Virus record (IMG/VR): IMGVR_UViG_3300004460_000110
Coordinates: 1-26,432 of that record
Direction: 5' to 3' (one strand)
Length of the DNA stretch: 26,432 bases
Source of the DNA: a virus
Shown: positions 7,302-22,636 of the stretch, one piece after another
How positions within the stretch are numbered: position 1 is the stretch's first letter
Layout: the number at the start of each line of letters is the position of its first letter
The notes under the pieces: generated by a model
Database searches by the model: none
What the model was told of the DNA's origin: nothing
Seen by the model: only the letters and a program-made list of their open reading frames with translations
Position numbers and translations under genes: made by a program

Positions 7302-7919
7302 TCACCAACCTATTTGATATTCCTCAATTATACCTGTCTCTTCATTTCGACCTTTTACAAAGCCTTCTTTCCTCCCATGTTGAAACAAGTCATAATTGAG
7401 TTTGCAATCTGCTATGCAGTATTTCATAACGTCCAGTTCTCGACCTTCTCGCCAAGCGATAGGTGCGTCTGCTGATTCCATGATTTCTTTTCCTACTCCG
7501 AGTGTGTGTTTGCATAGGGAGTCAAGTCGATGACTTTTTCCACACGCGCTACGCACTTCCCAAGAAGTGTCGCATACTGACTCATTGTCTTTTTGAAGAA
7601 GAACACCTGCGTAATGCATATCAAGAGAATCACGAAGTACAGGGAGGTCAAACCCTCGTATGTTATGTCCAACGATGATGCCACCATTATCGACGTGCTT
7701 TTTGAGATGTTCACCGAGTTCACGAGGATGAAGAGCGTGTATATGCGCACCGTCAATTTCAATATTGCGAGCATGACTAAACGCTTTCGTAAACACATGG
7801 GCTTCTTCACCATCCCATGTAGCCACAACGGATGTATCGAAGAGTTGAGTGTTACCCCAACCTCCAATCTCATGAGAGAAGTTTGTTGTTTCAATATCAA
7901 GTGCCATAATCTTACTCAT
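7302..7919 (-). CDS. DEDD-family 3'-5' exonuclease (DnaQ/PolB-exo-like)
   Basis: 205 residues with the three exonuclease motifs in order: Exo I ALDIETT at the N-terminus (first Asp-x-Glu), Exo II VGHNIRGFDLPVL near residue 90, and Exo III MKYCIADCKLNYDLF near residue 170 (Asp with a Tyr three residues earlier). The layout resembles the proofreading domain of family B polymerases as a stand-alone protein. It would remove 3' nucleotides from DNA (possibly RNA) with two metal ions. The start is supported by GGAGG six or seven bases upstream of the ATG. It lies 2 nt after the ATPase gene and 4 nt before the thermosome. The polymerase in this window has its own exonuclease domain, so this one is more likely a repair, end-processing or recycling nuclease. 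Confidence 0.85.
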   Translation of the reverse strand: MSKIMALDIETTNFSHEIGGWGNTQLFDTSVVATWDGEEAHVFTKAFSHARNIEIDGAHIHALHPRELGEHLKKHVDNGGIIVGHNIRGFDLPVLRDSLDMHYAGVLLQKDNESVCDTSWEVRSACGKSHRLDSLCKHTLGVGKEIMESADAPIAWREGRELDVMKYCIADCKLNYDLFQHGRKEGFVKGRNEETGIIEEYQIGW

Positions 7920-7921
7920 GC

Positions 7922-9346
7922 TTAATCCTCCTTGAATTTAACGTAGACTGCGTTGCCGACACGGAATGTCCTGAACAATCCGTCCACATCTTTGTACCTT
8001 TTATACACAGTAGGTTTGCTTTTTCCGAGTTGATTAGCGTATCGGTCAAACATATCGTTCTTGAGAACCCATCCATCACCTTTGCCTTCGATTTCTGTTT
8101 GCTTGCAAGCCTTGAATGCATTATTCCATTCATCCTTGCGTGCAATCTTTTCAGCAGCCTTAGCACCAACTTCAACTTCGGACTCAAGCCAAAGGACAAG
8201 TTGTTCATAGACGTCGTACAGAATCTCCGTTGCCATTTCAACGTCATCACCTGTAACAGTCCAATCATCTTCTATACCAATACCATCACGTTCCACTCTC
8301 ATCATAGCAAGATGTGTCGCGAAGATTGTAGTGTAGTTTAGGATGTTAGGGATGAATGAACAAACAACATCACTCAAGTGCTTATCCATACCGCGTACTA
8401 ATGTGTAATATTCTTCGACTGAGGCGAGTAACTGAGGTTCAAACGATGCATCGACGTTAAACATCTCATGCATACAAGCGCGTGCTATTCCTTCTTTACC
8501 TGCGGGTCCGAATGAATGCCAGTCATCTGCTGATACACCTGCAAGGTGTAACAAGCGCGCTTCTGTCTTTTCACGGATGTTAATGAAGTGTTGAGCAATG
8601 TCTTCAAGTGATTGTACTTCTGTTAGTTTATCCTTGAATACACCACCCATTCTTCGCTCTGATACCATCTGTCGCATATCATCACTCCACGGTCGGTAAA
8701 GCAATAACACACGTTGGAAGAGTCCCTTCGTAAGTACATACTCTTTAACACCACTTGGTGGGAAAGAAGTAATCCAAAATGATACGCGGGATTCTGTTTC
8801 CACTTTACCATTCTTCATGTGTTTAGTTAGCGTGTTACTGTGGCTTCCGACGTTATTCATTGCTTGTTGTAGATACAAGATAACTTCTGAAAAGAACTGC
8901 TTAGGGTTTGCTTGCAGAAGAATTGAACCTTCATCGAAGTTCAAACACTTCTTACCTGCGAGTAATCCTTCATTTTGTATAAGTTCGTAACCACCTTCTC
9001 CGTCGCTTACTGAGTCGATAGAACCGATAAGCGCGCTGTCTGTTCCGCTTGTGAACATATCTGTGTCCAGTCCTGCGAGTTTAGCAACTTCACCTGTAAA
9101 CTCCCATGCGATTGTCTTACCTGACCGTGTAGGTTGAATCCAAAATACATGGATTCTTGGGTCAAGTGCAGAAGCCCATACGGGTATTCGCACATAGTCT
9201 ACAAGGGCTTGACCTTGTAAGTAGAAGAAAGAAATCAGACCGGGTACTTCGTTGAAAAACGAAGTCGTCCTGTACCGTTCAAGGTATTCTTTCATCATCG
9301 GGTATTCTTTTACTGCTGTATATTCGTTCCATTGTCTTTGGGGCAT
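7922..9346 (-). CDS. P-loop ATPase with C-terminal winged helix, replicative helicase candidate
   Basis: 474 residues from the Met at 9346, chosen because GGAG lies 8 nt upstream; Met codons at 9361 and 9355 are alternatives. Walker A is QPTRSGKT (about 71-78) and Walker B CLNFDEGSILL (about 134-144). A sensor-like WITSFPP and an arginine-finger-like KGLFQRVLLLY follow, in the order of AAA+ helicases of the MCM or SF3 kind. The last 60 residues (WVLKNDMFDRYANQLGKSKP, then VYKRYKDVDG) look like a winged helix. The window holds primase, polymerase, clamp and loader but no other replicative helicase, so this is the best candidate. The motifs are divergent from classical MCM, and a terminase-like or other ATPase role cannot be excluded. 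Confidence 0.6.
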   Translation of the reverse strand: MPQRQWNEYTAVKEYPMMKEYLERYRTTSFFNEVPGLISFFYLQGQALVDYVRIPVWASALDPRIHVFWIQPTRSGKTIAWEFTGEVAKLAGLDTDMFTSGTDSALIGSIDSVSDGEGGYELIQNEGLLAGKKCLNFDEGSILLQANPKQFFSEVILYLQQAMNNVGSHSNTLTKHMKNGKVETESRVSFWITSFPPSGVKEYVLTKGLFQRVLLLYRPWSDDMRQMVSERRMGGVFKDKLTEVQSLEDIAQHFINIREKTEARLLHLAGVSADDWHSFGPAGKEGIARACMHEMFNVDASFEPQLLASVEEYYTLVRGMDKHLSDVVCSFIPNILNYTTIFATHLAMMRVERDGIGIEDDWTVTGDDVEMATEILYDVYEQLVLWLESEVEVGAKAAEKIARKDEWNNAFKACKQTEIEGKGDGWVLKNDMFDRYANQLGKSKPTVYKRYKDVDGLFRTFRVGNAVYVKFKED

Positions 9347-13000: not shown

Positions 13001-13311
13001 TGTTGTCCCACCATTGTTGGTGCATCTATCTTGTTGATGAAGTAGAGGTCGGGCATCTTACGTCGCAACTCTTCTTGAAGTTCTGCAACCGCGCGGGCAA
13101 TGTTTGCGTTTATTGCGGTGTCATGTTCAAGTGCGGTAATTTCATCATCAAATCTATCAAGACGCTCTTCAACTTCTGAATGTTCGTTCGATAAATTGTT
13201 GACCTTTTCTTCAAGTTCGTTCACTTTCTTCATCAGCATCAAGCGGTCTTCGCTAAGTTCAACTATTCGGGCTTCTAATTTTTCTATTCGTTCTTCGTTT
13301 CTCATGGTCAT
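12997..13311 (-). CDS. 104-residue coiled-coil protein
   Basis: The ATG at 13311 overlaps the polymerase stop (TGATG); a GTG at 13314 is the weaker alternative. Residues 5-80 have heptad spacing of Leu, Ile and Val with Glu, Lys and Arg between them (IEKLEARIVELSEDRLMLMK, KVNELEEKVNNLSN), a clear long coiled coil. The C-terminus PDLYFINKIDAPTMV is not helical. It is probably a dimer or trimer. Its place directly behind DNA polymerase suggests a polymerase or clamp partner, but the fold alone gives no function. Confidence 0.7.
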   Translation of the reverse strand: MTMRNEERIEKLEARIVELSEDRLMLMKKVNELEEKVNNLSNEHSEVEERLDRFDDEITALEHDTAINANIARAVAELQEELRRKMPDLYFINKIDAPTMVGQQ

Positions 13312-15647
13312 CACCAGTAGGTTGCAGGTTTGGGTTTCCCCATAGCGGCTTCAATATCCCAACCTAAGACATTAAAGACTGTGCCAATTTTTTTCTGAAT
13401 AAGTTTCTCGATAATCGCATTCTCATCAAGTTCGTATCCATCGAGTTCATCTGTTTCTCGATACGCGGCATACTTTGTAGGTGGCATCCCTTGAGGGGGG
13501 TGTGACACATAGACGTACTGCACGCTGTCACCGACGACGTACTTGTCATCGTTGTGATTGTTGTAGTATAGTGCGGCTTGCCCTGCGGCAGTCCTCTTTG
13601 AAAGAACACCAATGCGAGTTGATTGTGTTATCTCTTTCATATTATATTCTCCTTTACGGATAGGAAGTACCATCTCAAGAACTGCATTACGCACGTCACC
13701 TTCGGAGGCTCCGGTGCAAACGAGTTCAAGGACAGTTCTTTCAGCACGCTTACTGATAGGTGCTTTACCACTCCCTTTCATCAACTGCGCGTTCTTCCAC
13801 TTACCCTCATCTTCGGGAGGGTAAGAGACAATACCGGCGTATCGGTTTGAGGTTTCCAAATACCAATAATCCATGTAAGCCTCAAGTTCAGCAATCAGTT
13901 TACTGTTACCTGTTTCTTCTTGTACAACAGTTGTTATTCGCGCGGCTAACTTTTCAGCGTCTTCAAGCGGTACTTGAATGAATGCAGAGTCAGTAAATCC
14001 ATAGATGACATTGTATCCCATGTTGGTCGCAACCGTATCAAGTAGTGCAATACATCGACGGCCTTGTGAGAGAATTGTCTCAGCGATGTCGAGGTCTGAC
14101 CAACCGTATCCTGAGTGGGCAGTCATTCCGTATAGTGATGCCATCACTCGCTTTACTGCTGATTGAGTAGTGTTCCATGCGGCACGCTCTTCTTTAGTCT
14201 CAGCGTTGCGCATCTTCTGTTTACATTCATCACGGTATTCAAACAAGTAGTCAACGATTTGAGGGAGTATCCCTTTTTCTCCTTGATACCAATGTGTTCC
14301 GTTCTCCAATGAGATGACATCTTCTCCCGGTCTGTCACGCTTTGTCGTCCAACATAAGTTGAAGCCTGACATGAGTGATGGGTACAACCCTTTGTAATCA
14401 AGTAACGCAACATTCTCATAGAGACCGTTATCCTTCTTGATGAACTCCGCGCCTTTCAGTTTGTCATGAGATGATTGGTATCTTGATGGTGCTTTCAATC
14501 CTGTTCTTCTTGAAATAAGACCGCGCGCAAAGTTTGTGACGTTTGACACGGACTTGAAAGAAACTCCTGTAAGTCGAACCATCTCCATGTAGAAGTCTGT
14601 TACGTTTCTTGACTCGTCGATACCACGAAGGAGGACGGTGTCAAGTAAACAGTAGTCGACGAACTCATCGAAATATTCGTACCATCCATTGTGAACAGTC
14701 ATGCCTTCAATCTCCTCTGTCAACTTTGAGCCGAGTCCGAGTGTTTCAGCAATGGTATTCAACTTGAGGTTAGGTAATTGGCCGCCACCACTATCCTTCC
14801 ATACACGTTCAAAACCTGTACCTGTACTTTCAGGAGCAGATGTATCGAACTGAATTCGACCTGCGATTGGTTGTGCATCGTATCGGTATCGTTCTCCCTT
14901 CTTTGGGTATCGAATAATACCAAGAGGACTTAACTTAGACGCGCTTCCGAATCCATAGATTTTATCAATGCGTTCAATCATGTGAGGTATGTCAAAGAAT
15001 GTTCCTGCATGAGCAATCATCATATCAGGGTCGCGCTCTTGCAAGAATGCAATGAAGCCGTCATACATATCTTTCTCAGAAGAGTACAGATGCAGTATGT
15101 ATTTCTCATCACGAACCTTTCTTTGTAAGAAACTGTATTCAATACCATCATGGTAATCTTTAGAATTAGTTCGCTCATCAGCCCATGCGAACACAACAGG
15201 TTCGTTAAGGTCGGAGTCAATGACAGCAATGACAGTCGTGAACTTATCATCACCTGTATCACATTCAATATCATACCACCACTTGCGCGGCGTCCATTTC
15301 GGCATCTCTTGAAACGTATCTATCATGTACTGGTCTTCAAATCGAACATCTCCTTCGTAGGTCTTAGGAAACATCCTACTCATCTGCATGATGTCGAATG
15401 GACTATCAGACTCAACCTTGAACAGAAGAGTTTTATCAAGTCCTTTGTATCTTACACTTCTGTTTATTCTCGCTGCTGGAAAACTGCGGATGACATTGTG
15501 GATTGTATACTCAGCGGTGCTGATAGGTATGTACAGATATGGTTTGTAATCCTCGACGACGTTTGATACTAAATTACCGTCTCCATCTCGATAGCGAGTG
15601 TAGATTGTTGGTGATTTGTCGTCATGATAGACTGTGTCAATTATCAT
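13311..15647 (-). CDS. Family B DNA polymerase
   Basis: 778 residues from the ATG at 15647, overlapping the clamp gene by 11 bp; an upstream start would enter the clamp gene. The exonuclease domain has Exo I WWYDIECD (123-130), a divergent Exo II AHAGTFFDIP (212-221, without the usual Asn) and Exo III DYCLLDTVL (331-339). The polymerase domain has motif A DYKGLYPSLM (417-426), motif B KRVMASLYG (499-507, Ala for the usual Asn) and motif C YGFTDS (549-554, Phe for the first Asp of DTD). The metal-binding Asp of motif A and second Asp of motif C are kept, so it may be active. It copies the viral genome with the primase, clamp and loader in the same operon. Confidence 0.95.
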   Translation of the reverse strand: MIIDTVYHDDKSPTIYTRYRDGDGNLVSNVVEDYKPYLYIPISTAEYTIHNVIRSFPAARINRSVRYKGLDKTLLFKVESDSPFDIMQMSRMFPKTYEGDVRFEDQYMIDTFQEMPKWTPRKWWYDIECDTGDDKFTTVIAVIDSDLNEPVVFAWADERTNSKDYHDGIEYSFLQRKVRDEKYILHLYSSEKDMYDGFIAFLQERDPDMMIAHAGTFFDIPHMIERIDKIYGFGSASKLSPLGIIRYPKKGERYRYDAQPIAGRIQFDTSAPESTGTGFERVWKDSGGGQLPNLKLNTIAETLGLGSKLTEEIEGMTVHNGWYEYFDEFVDYCLLDTVLLRGIDESRNVTDFYMEMVRLTGVSFKSVSNVTNFARGLISRRTGLKAPSRYQSSHDKLKGAEFIKKDNGLYENVALLDYKGLYPSLMSGFNLCWTTKRDRPGEDVISLENGTHWYQGEKGILPQIVDYLFEYRDECKQKMRNAETKEERAAWNTTQSAVKRVMASLYGMTAHSGYGWSDLDIAETILSQGRRCIALLDTVATNMGYNVIYGFTDSAFIQVPLEDAEKLAARITTVVQEETGNSKLIAELEAYMDYWYLETSNRYAGIVSYPPEDEGKWKNAQLMKGSGKAPISKRAERTVLELVCTGASEGDVRNAVLEMVLPIRKGEYNMKEITQSTRIGVLSKRTAAGQAALYYNNHNDDKYVVGDSVQYVYVSHPPQGMPPTKYAAYRETDELDGYELDENAIIEKLIQKKIGTVFNVLGWDIEAAMGKPKPATYW

Positions 15648-16416
15648 CGTCAACACCTGCTTGATGCTTAAGAACAAGAAGCGCACTCGTATCTTGATTG
15701 TCTAAGACTAAGGCACTCTTCTCTCCCATATGGTATTGAACAACACCGCTTGGCATAATCTTGAGTAGAGATGGTAACAACGAAGAGAAGACTGATTGGC
15801 AATCTATACTTTCATAGGTATCGAGAACTGCAATGACCCTTGTCATTCGCGCACCTCTCGCTTGACCCGCACTTACTATCATCTCAGCGTCTCTGACGGA
15901 GATACGAACAGGCGCGTCTTTAGATGTAACTTTAGTCATCGTTTGAAGTCCATGTAATTCACTCATCATCAGCGCACCGTGAGCCTGTATTGATGCACGT
16001 CCGAGTTTACTCCACGCGTTTCTCTTTGCTTCACTAATTGCTTTCTTCGCTCTATCTACTGATTGGTAAGATAGTATCTCGCGATAAGTTGGTGATGTGT
16101 AAGTGTCTACTCCGTTAGTTATTGTAAGCATACCATCTGATTGTCGAATCCTCGTAGGTTCTGACTTATCGCAAAACTTGAGGAACGCAACAACCTTATC
16201 GAGATTAGGGATGTAAACAGTACCTTGTCGATAATGTTCTCCTGATTCAAATTGATAGATACCTATCGAGTTCGTGAAGTAATGTGTATCCACATCAACT
16301 GAACCTGTCATTCGTAGATTTTGGATGTCACATCGAAGGTCGTTGACACCTTCTCCGAACCCGCCAATAAAAGCGCGCAACGATTCTGTGTCAAATGTTC
16401 CTTGAACAAAACTCAT
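15637..16416 (-). CDS. Sliding-clamp-like protein (probable PCNA)
   Basis: 259 residues, close to the usual 240-260 of PCNA. There is no unmistakable motif. The second half has the alternating pattern of a clamp domain (VRISVRDAEMIVSA; then CQSVFSSLLPSLLKIMPSGV followed by VQYHMGEKSALVL, resembling the C-terminal helix and paired strands of PCNA). The gene sits directly before DNA polymerase B, with an 11-bp overlap, in an operon that also has an RFC small subunit. A clamp loader needs a clamp, so context supports the call. The first half is more divergent. The C-terminus GVDDDN is acidic. Fold comparison would settle it. Confidence 0.55.
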   Translation of the reverse strand: MSFVQGTFDTESLRAFIGGFGEGVNDLRCDIQNLRMTGSVDVDTHYFTNSIGIYQFESGEHYRQGTVYIPNLDKVVAFLKFCDKSEPTRIRQSDGMLTITNGVDTYTSPTYREILSYQSVDRAKKAISEAKRNAWSKLGRASIQAHGALMMSELHGLQTMTKVTSKDAPVRISVRDAEMIVSAGQARGARMTRVIAVLDTYESIDCQSVFSSLLPSLLKIMPSGVVQYHMGEKSALVLDNQDTSALLVLKHQAGVDDDN

Positions 16417-19257: not shown

Positions 19258-20142
19258 TTATTCCTCCTTGTTTTTTGTGTCTGCGTTGTATAGACTTGCA
19301 ATGAAATAGTCCACGAAAGACTCTTCATCGAAAGGCCATTGGTTCATTCTTATTACGAAATCTCCCCATACAACGTAGAAAGTATATAGTCTTTCCGAGG
19401 TAAGCCCTACGGATTTGACATAGTTTTGTATCTCACGCATCAAATAATGCAATGAGGCTCCTGCTCGTATCATTCCAAGCATGGTTTTGTGAGTGTTCGT
19501 CCAGTCTCCTGCGGCGATATGTAATGTTATCTCGTCAATACTACTCTGAGATAGTTCAAGTTTCTTCTTGCTTAGGATGTGTTTACCTATTGCGCGAAGG
19601 TCTCCGTTGAATTGTGAATGCAATACTGCGGGGCTTTCTGAACTTGCTACTCCTGTCTTAGAAAGGAGTAGTGCCTGATACGCGCTAATTTGTTTTACGG
19701 TATATGGTTTGAATGAGAAGATAACACAGCGTGATTTGATAGCAGGGATAATCTTACTGTTATCATTACAGGTAAGTATCCACCAACAGTTACTCTTCTC
19801 CATGATTCGCTTGAGTGAATCTTGGGCAGGTTTGGTTAGTCCGTCAGCCTCATCCAATAGAATGAGTCGACCGCCGTTCCAAAGAGTGGCAGTCTTAGAC
19901 GCCGACTTCAATTGGTTTCTGATGAAATCTATACCGCGTTCATCGGAAGCGTTGTACTCAACGATGTCAAGTTCAAGATACTTACCGATGAGGTAAGCGG
20001 CTGTTGTCTTTCCAAGTCCCGGTGCGCCATCTAACATGAGGCATTGGGGGCTATCACTTTCCCACTCATCAACATAGAAAAGTGGATTGTTCGGGTCATC
20101 ATGACCGATATATTCTGCTAAGTTTTCAGGTTCAAAATTCAT
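19258..20142 (-). CDS. Replication factor C small subunit (clamp loader ATPase)
   Basis: 294 residues from the Met at 20142, chosen because GGAG stands 8 nt upstream and the TATA box at the right distance; the frame is open to 20208 but that part covers the promoter. RFC boxes are clear: GAPGLGKTT (39-47, Walker A), YNASDERGIDFIR (63-75), LILLDEADGL (93-102, Walker B) and IKSRCVIFSF (135-144, the SRC arginine finger). It opens the sliding clamp onto primed DNA. No large subunit is in the window; a homo-oligomer or use of the host large subunit is possible. It is the first gene of the replication operon. Confidence 0.93.
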   Translation of the reverse strand: MNFEPENLAEYIGHDDPNNPLFYVDEWESDSPQCLMLDGAPGLGKTTAAYLIGKYLELDIVEYNASDERGIDFIRNQLKSASKTATLWNGGRLILLDEADGLTKPAQDSLKRIMEKSNCWWILTCNDNSKIIPAIKSRCVIFSFKPYTVKQISAYQALLLSKTGVASSESPAVLHSQFNGDLRAIGKHILSKKKLELSQSSIDEITLHIAAGDWTNTHKTMLGMIRAGASLHYLMREIQNYVKSVGLTSERLYTFYVVWGDFVIRMNQWPFDEESFVDYFIASLYNADTKNKEE

Positions 20143-20180
20143 TTTTTTGTCTCCAACCGCTTCAACATATTCCGCGTCAA

Positions 20181-20188
20181 TATATAAA
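20181..20188 (-). promoter_or_regulatory. TATA box of the replication operon
   Basis: The - strand reads GGGGGGTTTATATATTGACG. TTTATATA matches the archaeal TATA box. Its end is 38 nt before the RFC start, so a transcript starting about 22-25 nt downstream would have a leader of about 15 nt carrying GGAG. No clear BRE is seen; a run of six G stands directly upstream instead. Confidence 0.65.
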
Positions 20189-20208
20189 CCCCCCAAAATC
20201 GGTGGCAC

Positions 20209-20326: not shown

Positions 20327-20330
20327 CTAT
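20317..20330. repeat. Small inverted repeat ATAGGT-TT-ACCTAT
   Basis: A perfect 6-bp inverted repeat with a 2-bp centre that covers the stop codon of the 20327-20677 gene. The loop is too short for a stable RNA hairpin of full stem length and no U run follows directly, so a protein-binding site is as likely as a terminator. Confidence 0.35.
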
Positions 20331-20677
20331 TGCTCATCAATCATTCGGATGATTGATTCAATCTCTTCATGGGATGGGGAACGCCCTTTGAAATCCATGA
20401 GCCGAATCATCTTGAGCATATTGTCAACGTCGTACACATATTGTTTGACGGGTGTGAGGATTCGTATCACCTGACGAATCAGCGTTGCGTCTTTGATGAC
20501 TCTTGCATTCACACCTTGCGTGGACAACCACATATTGAGAGCAGGTTCATCCTTTCGGCTCACAAGCACACGCCTCTCAACCCTGTATCCTATTCGTGTC
20601 TTCGGAGAGAAGTGAACGCTGATTTGAAATCGACATTCCCTTGCTAACCATGCAAGAAAGAAAGAGTCTTCATCCAT
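20327..20677 (-). CDS. 116-residue protein, weakly LAGLIDADG-like
   Basis: The start at 20677 overlaps the upstream stop by 8 bp behind GAGGTGA; the longer frame to 20812 lies inside the upstream gene. The sequence opens MDEDSFFLAWLARECRFQIS, then RVLVSRKDEPALNMWLSTQG and NARVIKDATLIRQVIRILTP. The helix-strand-strand layout and phrases resemble a single LAGLIDADG endonuclease domain, but the acidic catalytic residue of the motif is not in place. It could be a DNA-binding remnant or an unrelated fold. It is the last gene of its operon. Confidence 0.55.
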   Translation of the reverse strand: MDEDSFFLAWLARECRFQISVHFSPKTRIGYRVERRVLVSRKDEPALNMWLSTQGVNARVIKDATLIRQVIRILTPVKQYVYDVDNMLKMIRLMDFKGRSPSHEEIESIIRMIDEQ

Positions 20678-21992
20678 TCGGCTCACCTCTTTCCAGTAAG
20701 TCTCCGAGTTGGATAGCATCCGAGTGTCCGAGTGTCGTGTCAATGCGTGCAAGATATGGAGCGCGCATCTTCCCTTCTTCGTGAACGTATCCGAGTGAAT
20801 GGAAAATACCAATCAACCCTTCGTCGATGTCAAGCATACTCTGCGCATCGTATAGTCGAACAAGTTTGTCAGGGATGTCGTCGGCTTTCACGAAAGCATA
20901 CCCAACAGGGAATGGCTCAAAACCGTCGAGCGCGGCAATCTTAATTCGTATACCATCTCCATCACGGTATCCTCCAAGTATAAGCAACGGTATGTCAAAT
21001 GTTCTTCTCGGCACAATAAATCCTCCTACGCCTCCGCTGTGGAAGTAGGGTCGTTCAGCATCAATGAGTCGTAAGACCTCACCTTCTTCTAATGACTGAA
21101 CGATTGCTCTGAGGTGTGCGCGGTCTTTGACTTCCTTCGGATTTGTAGCACGCGCCTTTCTGTTACTCTTCCATAGATTCGGCTCACTCTCTCGGTACAA
21201 CCACTCGACTATGTTTCCTGACTCATCCATCTCACACACCACATCATCATCACCTTCAATCAAAGGTGCGCGCACGATTCGTACAGCATGACGGTCAAAT
21301 GAAAATAGCCTTCCCGCCCTTCTATGAACAAAGTAATTTTTACCACACACGACTTCATAGTGTGTGTTCGTGAAAGGGATTGACCATCTATTCCAACGTG
21401 AATAGGTTGGTGCTTTGAATGGATATGTCGGCTCAATATTATATTCCGATGGTAAGGTGTTGTTGAGCGCGCGCTGTATGACATCACCTGAAGGCATGAT
21501 TGTTCTCATGGTTTGCAGATGATTCGTTTCGTATGGTGTAACGTGTGCTATCGCACGCATGACTCTTCTGTAATTGAGTGAGGTTCTTCCAAAGCAGAAA
21601 CCCCAAAACAGCATTGCGCTGATTCGGCTCATGGATTGGAATACAATATCAGCATTCATCTCTCCTTTGAAAATCATATCTTTAATCTCGATAACCTCAC
21701 GCAAGGATAACGATGTCTCTATTTCATTAGGAGATTCACTCGCAAGAAGTGAAGGCATTTCGTGTTCGTCCATGAGTGATTCGTATTCTTCAGGGAACAA
21801 ACCGTAGGACTGCGCTAACATCTTGACGATGTGATGCGGCTTGATAGATAGGCGCGGGTTGGAACAGCAGATAGTAACGATGTCATGCGCACTCTCTTTG
21901 TTTCGTGTAAAGAGTTCTGATAGAATTTGCTTCTGTTGATTCGGCTCAGTCTGCGCGGCAAGCACAGCGTTGGCTAAATCTTCAAACCTCAT
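20670..21992 (-). CDS. ATP-dependent DNA-ligase-like protein without catalytic lysine
   Basis: 440 residues. The N-terminal 60 (FEDLANAVLAA, then ILSELFTRNKESAHDIVTIC) resemble the helical N-domain of archaeal DNA ligases. The middle runs YEVVCGKNYFVHRRAGRLFS (212-231), where active ligases have E-x-K-x-DG-x-R: the nucleotide-accepting Lys and Asp-Gly are missing. Next come EEGEVLRLI (302-310, for EGVMLK) and IVPRRTFD (326-333, for K-x-K). The end looks like the ligase OB domain: LLILGGYRDGDGIRI (336-350), VGYAFVKADDIPD, and MRAPYLARIDTTLG (409-422) like motif VI. I infer a diverged, probably adenylation-dead ligase homologue, perhaps a nick- or clamp-binding factor. The alignment is by eye. 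Confidence 0.5.
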   Translation of the reverse strand: MRFEDLANAVLAAQTEPNQQKQILSELFTRNKESAHDIVTICCSNPRLSIKPHHIVKMLAQSYGLFPEEYESLMDEHEMPSLLASESPNEIETSLSLREVIEIKDMIFKGEMNADIVFQSMSRISAMLFWGFCFGRTSLNYRRVMRAIAHVTPYETNHLQTMRTIMPSGDVIQRALNNTLPSEYNIEPTYPFKAPTYSRWNRWSIPFTNTHYEVVCGKNYFVHRRAGRLFSFDRHAVRIVRAPLIEGDDDVVCEMDESGNIVEWLYRESEPNLWKSNRKARATNPKEVKDRAHLRAIVQSLEEGEVLRLIDAERPYFHSGGVGGFIVPRRTFDIPLLILGGYRDGDGIRIKIAALDGFEPFPVGYAFVKADDIPDKLVRLYDAQSMLDIDEGLIGIFHSLGYVHEEGKMRAPYLARIDTTLGHSDAIQLGDLLERGEPNG

Positions 21993-22636
21993 TCTTCTTC
22001 ATCTCGGTTCGTCTTAACAAATATGAGACCGCGCAAGTGTGGAGGTATGGTTTCACCGTCATGGAATGTACCCATGATGAAGAGAGACTCTCGGTTTAGA
22101 GGTTCATCGAACGCTCCGCTGTCAGCAAGAGCAATGATTTCTTCTCGTTCAAGTACACGCATTCCTTTCCATGAGAAGAACAATTCGTCTCCTGCAACGA
22201 GGTGATAATCCATAGGACTTAGTGCGACTCCCTCATCCTTGACATCTTCTTTTCTATGATAGACGATGACGCGCCACCCGTTGTCTTGGTCAAGGTGTGT
22301 CCACTCTGCGTTTTCTAAATCGAAATTGACAATTGGAATTTCAGTATCAGGACACGTCCATTCTTTAGCCGCATCTTGCGCGGCCTTCTCAGGGTCGTGT
22401 ATGAGTTCAGCATCTTCGGTGATGAGTACAGCATCGAACGACTCCAACACCTTCTTGATTCGTTGGAGTGGAAGGAAAGAAGCGGGGCTTGCTTTCGATA
22501 CTCTTAGTGTGTTGTCGTTTTCTTTGATGAGTACAGCGTCAGCGACACCCCATGTATCACCGATACTCATTCTCTCCAACTGACTTCTCGTCCAGTCGAC
22601 GTCTTCTTCTGCGGGTTCCCAGTTATCTTCAATCAT
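21989..22636 (-). CDS. 215-residue acidic hypothetical protein
   Basis: Both ends are fixed by ATGA overlaps. The protein is acidic (many Asp and Glu; WEPAEEDVDW at the start, NRDEEE at the end), with one half of helices and strands around FDAVLITEDAELIHDPEKAA and a second half of beta strands (WRVIVYHRKEDVKD, FFSWKGMRVLEREEIIALAD, ESLFIMGTFHDG). There is no Cys pair or nucleotide motif. The phrase DNGWRVIV recalls DNGWHVFV in the 100-residue protein at 12698-13000, maybe a shared small domain. Function unknown; the next gene is the ligase-like protein. Confidence 0.7.
   Translation of the reverse strand: MIEDNWEPAEEDVDWTRSQLERMSIGDTWGVADAVLIKENDNTLRVSKASPASFLPLQRIKKVLESFDAVLITEDAELIHDPEKAAQDAAKEWTCPDTEIPIVNFDLENAEWTHLDQDNGWRVIVYHRKEDVKDEGVALSPMDYHLVAGDELFFSWKGMRVLEREEIIALADSGAFDEPLNRESLFIMGTFHDGETIPPHLRGLIFVKTNRDEEE

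Follow-up and report, generated by a model that had tools for sequence, protein, structure and literature searches.

A predicted ligase-fold protein lacking the motif I lysine is conserved in the replication gene block of magrovirus-type viruses

The stretch of viral DNA analysed here (the window; 26,432 nucleotides, positions 1 to 26,432 of IMG/VR record IMGVR_UViG_3300004460_000110) is a 26-kb fragment whose minus-strand gene block holds a family B DNA polymerase (PolB), a P-loop protein, a clamp loader, and an intact gene for a 440-aa protein, below called the pseudo-ligase (Table 1). Further genes of the block, provisionally labelled “rpa,” “pcna,” and “radA,” have no firm family match. 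HMMER searches with the single 440-aa sequence and with its close homologues gave no sequence match in Pfam, NCBIfam, PHROG, or PDB, and the ligase profiles PF01068 and PF04675 match none of the 31 family members.

Table 1. Features of the pseudo-ligase locus and the second ligase-like domain of related contigs. Window coordinates are given without a prefix.
Feature	Position	Strand	Basis
Pseudo-DNA-ligase gene, 440 aa, ATG to stop, intact	20670..21992	-	ORF, AlphaFold2 model, fold search
N-terminal all-helical domain, residues 1-184, counterpart of the ligase DNA-binding domain	21441..21992	-	AlphaFold2 secondary structure, profile alignment, fold match starting at residue 1
Nucleotidyltransferase-fold domain, residues 185-332, shortened to 148 aa	20997..21440	-	Structural match 10ye_L
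OB-fold domain, residues 333-440	20673..20996	-	AlphaFold2 strands 333-369, helix 375-381, strands 387-417
Degenerate motif I, E213-V214-V215-C216-G217 (ligase E-x-K-x-D-G)	21342..21356	-	Column 215 counts
Motif III-like strand VCEMD, with E254 retained in 26/31	21225..21242	-	Register by inspection
Motif IV-like EGEVLR; E305 30/31, R308 30/31	21069..21086	-	Register by inspection
Motif V-like FIVPRR	21003..21020	-	Register by inspection
Motif VI-like RAPYLARIDTT, Lys absent	20733..20765	-	Register by inspection
Clamp-loader gene, RFC small subunit-like, downstream of the pseudo-ligase in every case	19258..20208	-	AAA PF00004 1.1e-10, phrog_168 4.7e-36
Family B DNA polymerase, in the pseudo-ligase gene block	13311..15686	-	
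Upstream 215-aa orphan gene, overlaps pseudo-ligase start	21989..22636	-	
Downstream conserved orphan gene, ~117 aa, overlaps pseudo-ligase end	20327..20680	-	
Second lysine-less ligase-like domain	G015:C1:36219-37259	+	PF01068 16-26 bits
Second lysine-less ligase-like domain	G016:C1:72416-73447	-	PF01068 16-26 bits
Second lysine-less ligase-like domain	G024:C1:39826-40857	-	PF01068 16-26 bits
Second lysine-less ligase-like domain	G026:C1:51732-52766	-	PF01068 16-26 bits
Second lysine-less ligase-like domain	loci L257-L261		

Relatives were gathered from IMG/VR by scans with the 440-aa protein, its alignments, and its neighbours (PolB and primase). About 30 distinct sequences (22–81% identity) occupy the same genomic place in related viral contigs, with identities of 69–81% in the near clade, 35–54% in intermediate groups, and 22–26% in far groups; all come from metagenomic contigs of unknown completeness. 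No cellular homologue was found in a genome scan, and no homologue in the phage collection. The order pseudo-ligase, (117-aa gene), clamp loader, three more genes, PolB is kept in all contigs spanning the region. The 215-aa gene, the 117-aa gene, and a gene for an SNF2-like helicase are found beside the pseudo-ligase only outside the far groups, the absence of upstream genes there being weak evidence because the loci often start inside the pseudo-ligase gene. The 215-aa protein is conserved and strongly acidic (net −12.6 per 100 aa); close to its C-terminus, PPHLRG is invariant. The ~117-aa protein weakly matches an HNH-endonuclease PHROG (E 0.017). One pseudo-ligase copy, L102:3855-5338, is broken into two frames near motif I, which may be a sequencing error.

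Descent from ligases was assessed by profile–profile comparison with nine genuine archaeal ATP-dependent ligases taken from genomes. A 27-member pseudo-ligase profile matched this reference with E 3e-4, and a 31-member profile with E 1.1e-5, collinearly over residues 1–276, the degenerate motif I segment falling onto ligase motif I. As a control, the same ligase profile was compared with 13 further gene families of these viruses, all of which gave E of at least 0.024. One out of 60 column-shuffled controls (hhalign) had an anomalously high score, and therefore the profile comparison alone is not proof of ligase descent. The C-terminal half by itself has no profile match; it is the fold search that supports the OB assignment.

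An initial AlphaFold2 run with 14 close homologues was discarded (pLDDT 46); with 31 diverse sequences the model reached a mean pLDDT of 88.9 and a pTM of 0.71. In a Foldseek search against PDB, the best match was the Pyrococcus furiosus ligase (2cfm; E 1.2e-16, probability 1.00), and all of the 50 matches listed were ATP-dependent DNA ligases or ligase-containing complexes; a search of a viral structure library again matched DNA ligases, including that of Halogranum tailed virus 1. VIA-align to the Thermococcus ligase 3rr5 aligned 434 residues across positions 1–439 (Z 17.3). The overall rmsd of the model to full-length ligases is large (9–14 Å), most likely reflecting the domain arrangement, since the nucleotidyltransferase (NTase) domain alone (residues 185–332) fits human ligase III (10ye_L) at 2.4 Å over 146 residues (Z 13.6), with 148 aa in place of the 208 aa of the human LigIII domain chain.

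The predicted fold thus satisfies the structural criterion for ATP-dependent DNA ligases, with the DNA-binding, NTase, and OB domains in order. A preliminary annotation made from the sequence alone (the sequence-only reading) had proposed the same layout, namely, an N-domain, a motif I region, EEGEVLR (residues 302–308), an OB domain, and MRAPYLARID (residues 409–418) in ligase order, and both the profile comparison and the fold search bear this out. An mRNA capping enzyme or RNA ligase was also considered and rejected, as the lysine is absent and residues 1–184 align with the DNA-binding domain of ligases. Taken together, these data make it almost certain that the 440-aa protein is a pseudo-ligase descended from a three-domain ATP-dependent DNA ligase.

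The motif I segment reads Y212-E213-V214-V215-C216-G217, so that both K and D of E-x-K-x-D-G are lost. The lysine position (V215) is occupied by Val in 18, Ile in seven, Ser in two, Met in two, and Leu in one of the 30 aligned sequences, and, as it is never Lys, the loss is not a sequencing accident; the Glu position retains Glu or Asp in 28 out of 30. The next position, 216, may be Arg, Lys, Ser, Asn, Cys, Thr, or Glu, with Lys in 10 out of 30 sequences, and the loop past motif I lacks one residue relative to ligases. The registers of motifs III–VI were set by inspection and secondary structure, without residue-level superposition. With this reservation, the first Lys of motif V (segment GGFIVPRR, residues 323–330) is lost in 31 out of 31 sequences, and the second is Arg or Lys in 26, while the motif VI lysine is absent (R-I-D-T-T, Lys at 418–420 in none of the 31). 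No Lys column of the NTase and OB domains is conserved beyond 68%; instead, the conserved residues are His223 (30 out of 30), Arg281 (31 out of 31), Glu305 and Arg308 (30 out of 31 each), Gly324, Asp356–Gly357, Gly422, and Gln428. As far as can be predicted from these residues, the protein cannot seal nicks by the lysyl-adenylate route; on its adenylation or sealing activity itself, there are no assay data.

The pseudo-ligase is under strong purifying selection and is not decaying: dN/dS is 0.02–0.16 in 13 pairs (two pairs containing the window sequence were saturated, dS > 2), length is intact in divergent relatives, and the OB domain is the best-conserved part in the near clade (pairwise identity 0.85). 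Common descent, clade-wide loss of catalytic residues, and purifying selection together meet the criteria for a pseudoenzyme. The sequence-only reading had noted EVVCG in place of motif I and PRR in place of the K-x-K of motif V, and had suggested a conserved ligase scaffold without adenylation chemistry. The motif I observation holds, that on motif V stands for its first lysine and needs refinement for the second, which is still basic in most relatives, and the scaffold is supported by the fold search, the residue counts in 31 sequences, and the selection test. Two of the checks it had proposed agree with it as well, structure prediction recovering a ligase fold over residues 1–439, and related viruses having lost the same lysine in all 30 aligned sequences while the rest of the protein is constrained; neither of the outcomes named as refuting it, an unrelated fold or a lysine correctly placed in the active site, occurred. 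Beyond that reading, every relative sampled shares the loss, and these viruses have another ligase-like domain that is also without the lysine.

This second domain came from searches of the long relatives (74–118 kb), where no genuine ligase was detected by PF01068, PF04675, or PF01653 (NAD-dependent ligase), controls being detected. PF01068 gave weak matches only (16–26 bits), at the C-terminus of an ORF of 1800–2400 aa that, where neighbours could be read, immediately precedes the genes for the head maturation protease and the major capsid protein. The matches resembled a genuine second ligase but correspond to a domain of this giant protein whose motif I, S-x-[WYM]-P-x-G-x-[RH], has Trp, Tyr, or Met in place of the lysine. 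Its homology to the 440-aa protein was not shown by profile comparison (E 0.05–0.24), and the snurportin cap-binding profile PF21974 gives a weak match to it (E 1.4e-4). That no active ligase was seen in the viral contigs means “not found,” not proven absent, and a ligase elsewhere in this virus is not excluded.

The gene content of the window and its relatives agrees with that of the Magrovirales, described as having PolB, an archaeal-type primase, a clamp loader, an ERCC4-type nuclease, a chaperonin, and genomes of 90–118 kb (PMC10768690, PMC12999244), no reference magrovirus sequence having been compared. An “ATP-dependent DNA ligase” has been annotated in magroviruses (ICTV profiles PMC10768690, PMC12999244; PMC10160649) and placed beside the prohead protease (PMC7318539). 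Since this is the same arrangement as that of the giant domain, we infer that the published ligase probably is the lysine-less domain of the giant protein. It belongs to the same virus group by gene content and likewise comprises a ligase-like domain, but the 440-aa gene is a different one, located in the replication block.

The host order is likely Poseidoniales, an indirect inference resting on kinship to magroviruses. In a sample of 60 Poseidoniales genomes (the order of L145), the ATP-dependent ligase profile PF01068 was found in none, and the NAD-dependent LigA profile PF01653 in 59; our literature search found no paper making either of these points. The viral chaperonin does not fix the host, being not close to the Poseidoniales copies (~33% identity vs. 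~40% to its best cellular matches, in methanogen and other euryarchaeal genomes).

Compared with archaeal and eukaryal ATP ligases (3rr5, 2cfm, and the cores of human LIG1/3/4), the pseudo-ligase has the same three domains in the same order over residues 1–439, but lacks the motif I Lys and Asp, the first motif V Lys, and the motif VI Lys, has a pruned NTase domain, and matches no Pfam ligase profile. The m3G-cap-binding domain of snurportin-1 has a capping-enzyme fold without catalysis and binds the m3G cap. It thus represents a covalent-nucleotidyltransferase fold in which the lysine was lost and a binding role taken up, as we propose for the pseudo-ligase, although snurportin-1 is a eukaryotic import factor and has no DNA-binding domain or OB pair. 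Catalytically inactive LIG4, likewise a dead ligase serving as a scaffold (PMC9638927, PMC10858965), is reported to support end joining (PMC9638927, PMC10858965, PMC11754673) and gives an experimental precedent for a scaffold role, but it is a laboratory mutant of an active enzyme, whereas the pseudo-ligase is a natural lysine-less lineage.

The data establish the fold, a lysine lost from every relative, purifying selection, a fixed place upstream of the clamp loader in the replication block, and, for the long relatives, the lack of a recognisable active ligase; a ligase body kept while its active site is lost everywhere probably has a non-chemical job at the replication machinery. On this view, the adenylating lysine of a three-domain archaeal/eukaryal ATP-dependent ligase, together with nearby residues that bind the nucleotide, would have disappeared before the divergence of the sampled magrovirus-type viruses. 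Strong purifying selection would since have maintained the protein as a non-catalytic component of the viral replisome. The helical DNA-binding domain and the NTase/OB jaws may close around DNA at nicks or primer junctions and keep it in place for other factors, while a different enzyme would do the sealing, the simplest candidate being the host NAD-dependent LigA. As a whole, we consider retention as a non-catalytic replisome factor, with sealing elsewhere, a reasonably probable explanation; DNA or nick clasping as the main role is inferred without binding data and remains tentative, if quite plausible. The low Lys and Arg content (11.4% vs. 15–18% in genuine ligases) is uninformative on DNA binding, because viral PolB is equally low (12.0%), and no PCNA-interaction motif is evident by eye. 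The uses suggested in the sequence-only reading, nick sensing, clamp binding, and partnering the host ligase, fit the location in the replication block, functional data being absent.

Partnership with the host ligase is at least sensible, given a host order with only NAD-dependent LigA. In its direct form, an adaptor would bring Poseidoniales LigA to Okazaki fragments and to the archaeal-type clamp of the virus; the ligase content of the likely host order and the lack of a recognisable active ligase in the viral contigs agree with this, but with no interaction evidence and a host link resting on kinship alone, we regard it as unlikely. That the host enzyme comes from a different ligase family could also suit an antagonist or decoy occupying nicks or a host-ligase partner, so that viral or host DNA stays unsealed, or shielding nicked viral DNA from host enzymes. 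By inference, a nick-binding dead ligase would compete with a living one; however, the gene lies in the viral replication block of all relatives, a position more in keeping with a core role than with interference with the host, and we find the decoy reading quite improbable.

Other readings turn on the former active site. The clustering of conserved residues in former motifs IV and V might indicate a nucleotide or nucleic-acid sensor, whose remodelled pocket (Glu305, Arg308, GGF-x-x-PRR, DGF) binds a ligand as snurportin does, and the PF21974 match of the giant-protein sister domain points the same way; yet the PRR part is lost in the far clade and no ligand has been identified, and there is only a small chance that this is the case. 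It is very unlikely that catalysis persists, as nucleotidyl transfer or ligation, by way of a shifted lysine or an altered chemistry: near-invariant Glu305 and Arg308 and the lysines at position 216 could be read in this way, but that position is variable, no lysine column of the NTase and OB domains exceeds 68%, and the NTase domain is cut down. The erosion of motifs I, V, and VI might also mark a decaying relic without function, to which we give next to no credence, since it is contradicted by the dN/dS values, the intact length in divergent relatives, and the 85% identity of the OB domain in the near clade.

A dead ligase that evolved naturally would allow the functions of the ligase body other than catalysis to be studied. 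Magroviruses infect abundant marine archaea and have been described as ligase-carrying and as replicating with little need for host factors. Should both ligase-like proteins be dead, the published claim would be wrong for the sealing step, and sealing must be borrowed, the likeliest source being a host ligase that belongs to a different family. A wider conjecture, possible but less secure than the clasping role, is that a whole archaeal virus order has no active ligase of its own and keeps two dead ones, a replisome clasp or LigA adaptor and a giant head-module fusion; this would be the first natural lineage known to us that uses a DNA ligase scaffold without ligation.

The polymerase of the same block has its own peculiarities. 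Its motif C is YGFTDS or YGHTDS in each of the 68 homologous sequences matched and thus lacks the first Asp of the common YGDTDS, both in the window and in its homologues. Moreover, in four contigs (L227, L230, L250, L252) PolB is split into two adjoining ORFs (e.g., L230:6467-7840 and 7840-8886), at approximately residue 440/446, just past motif A.
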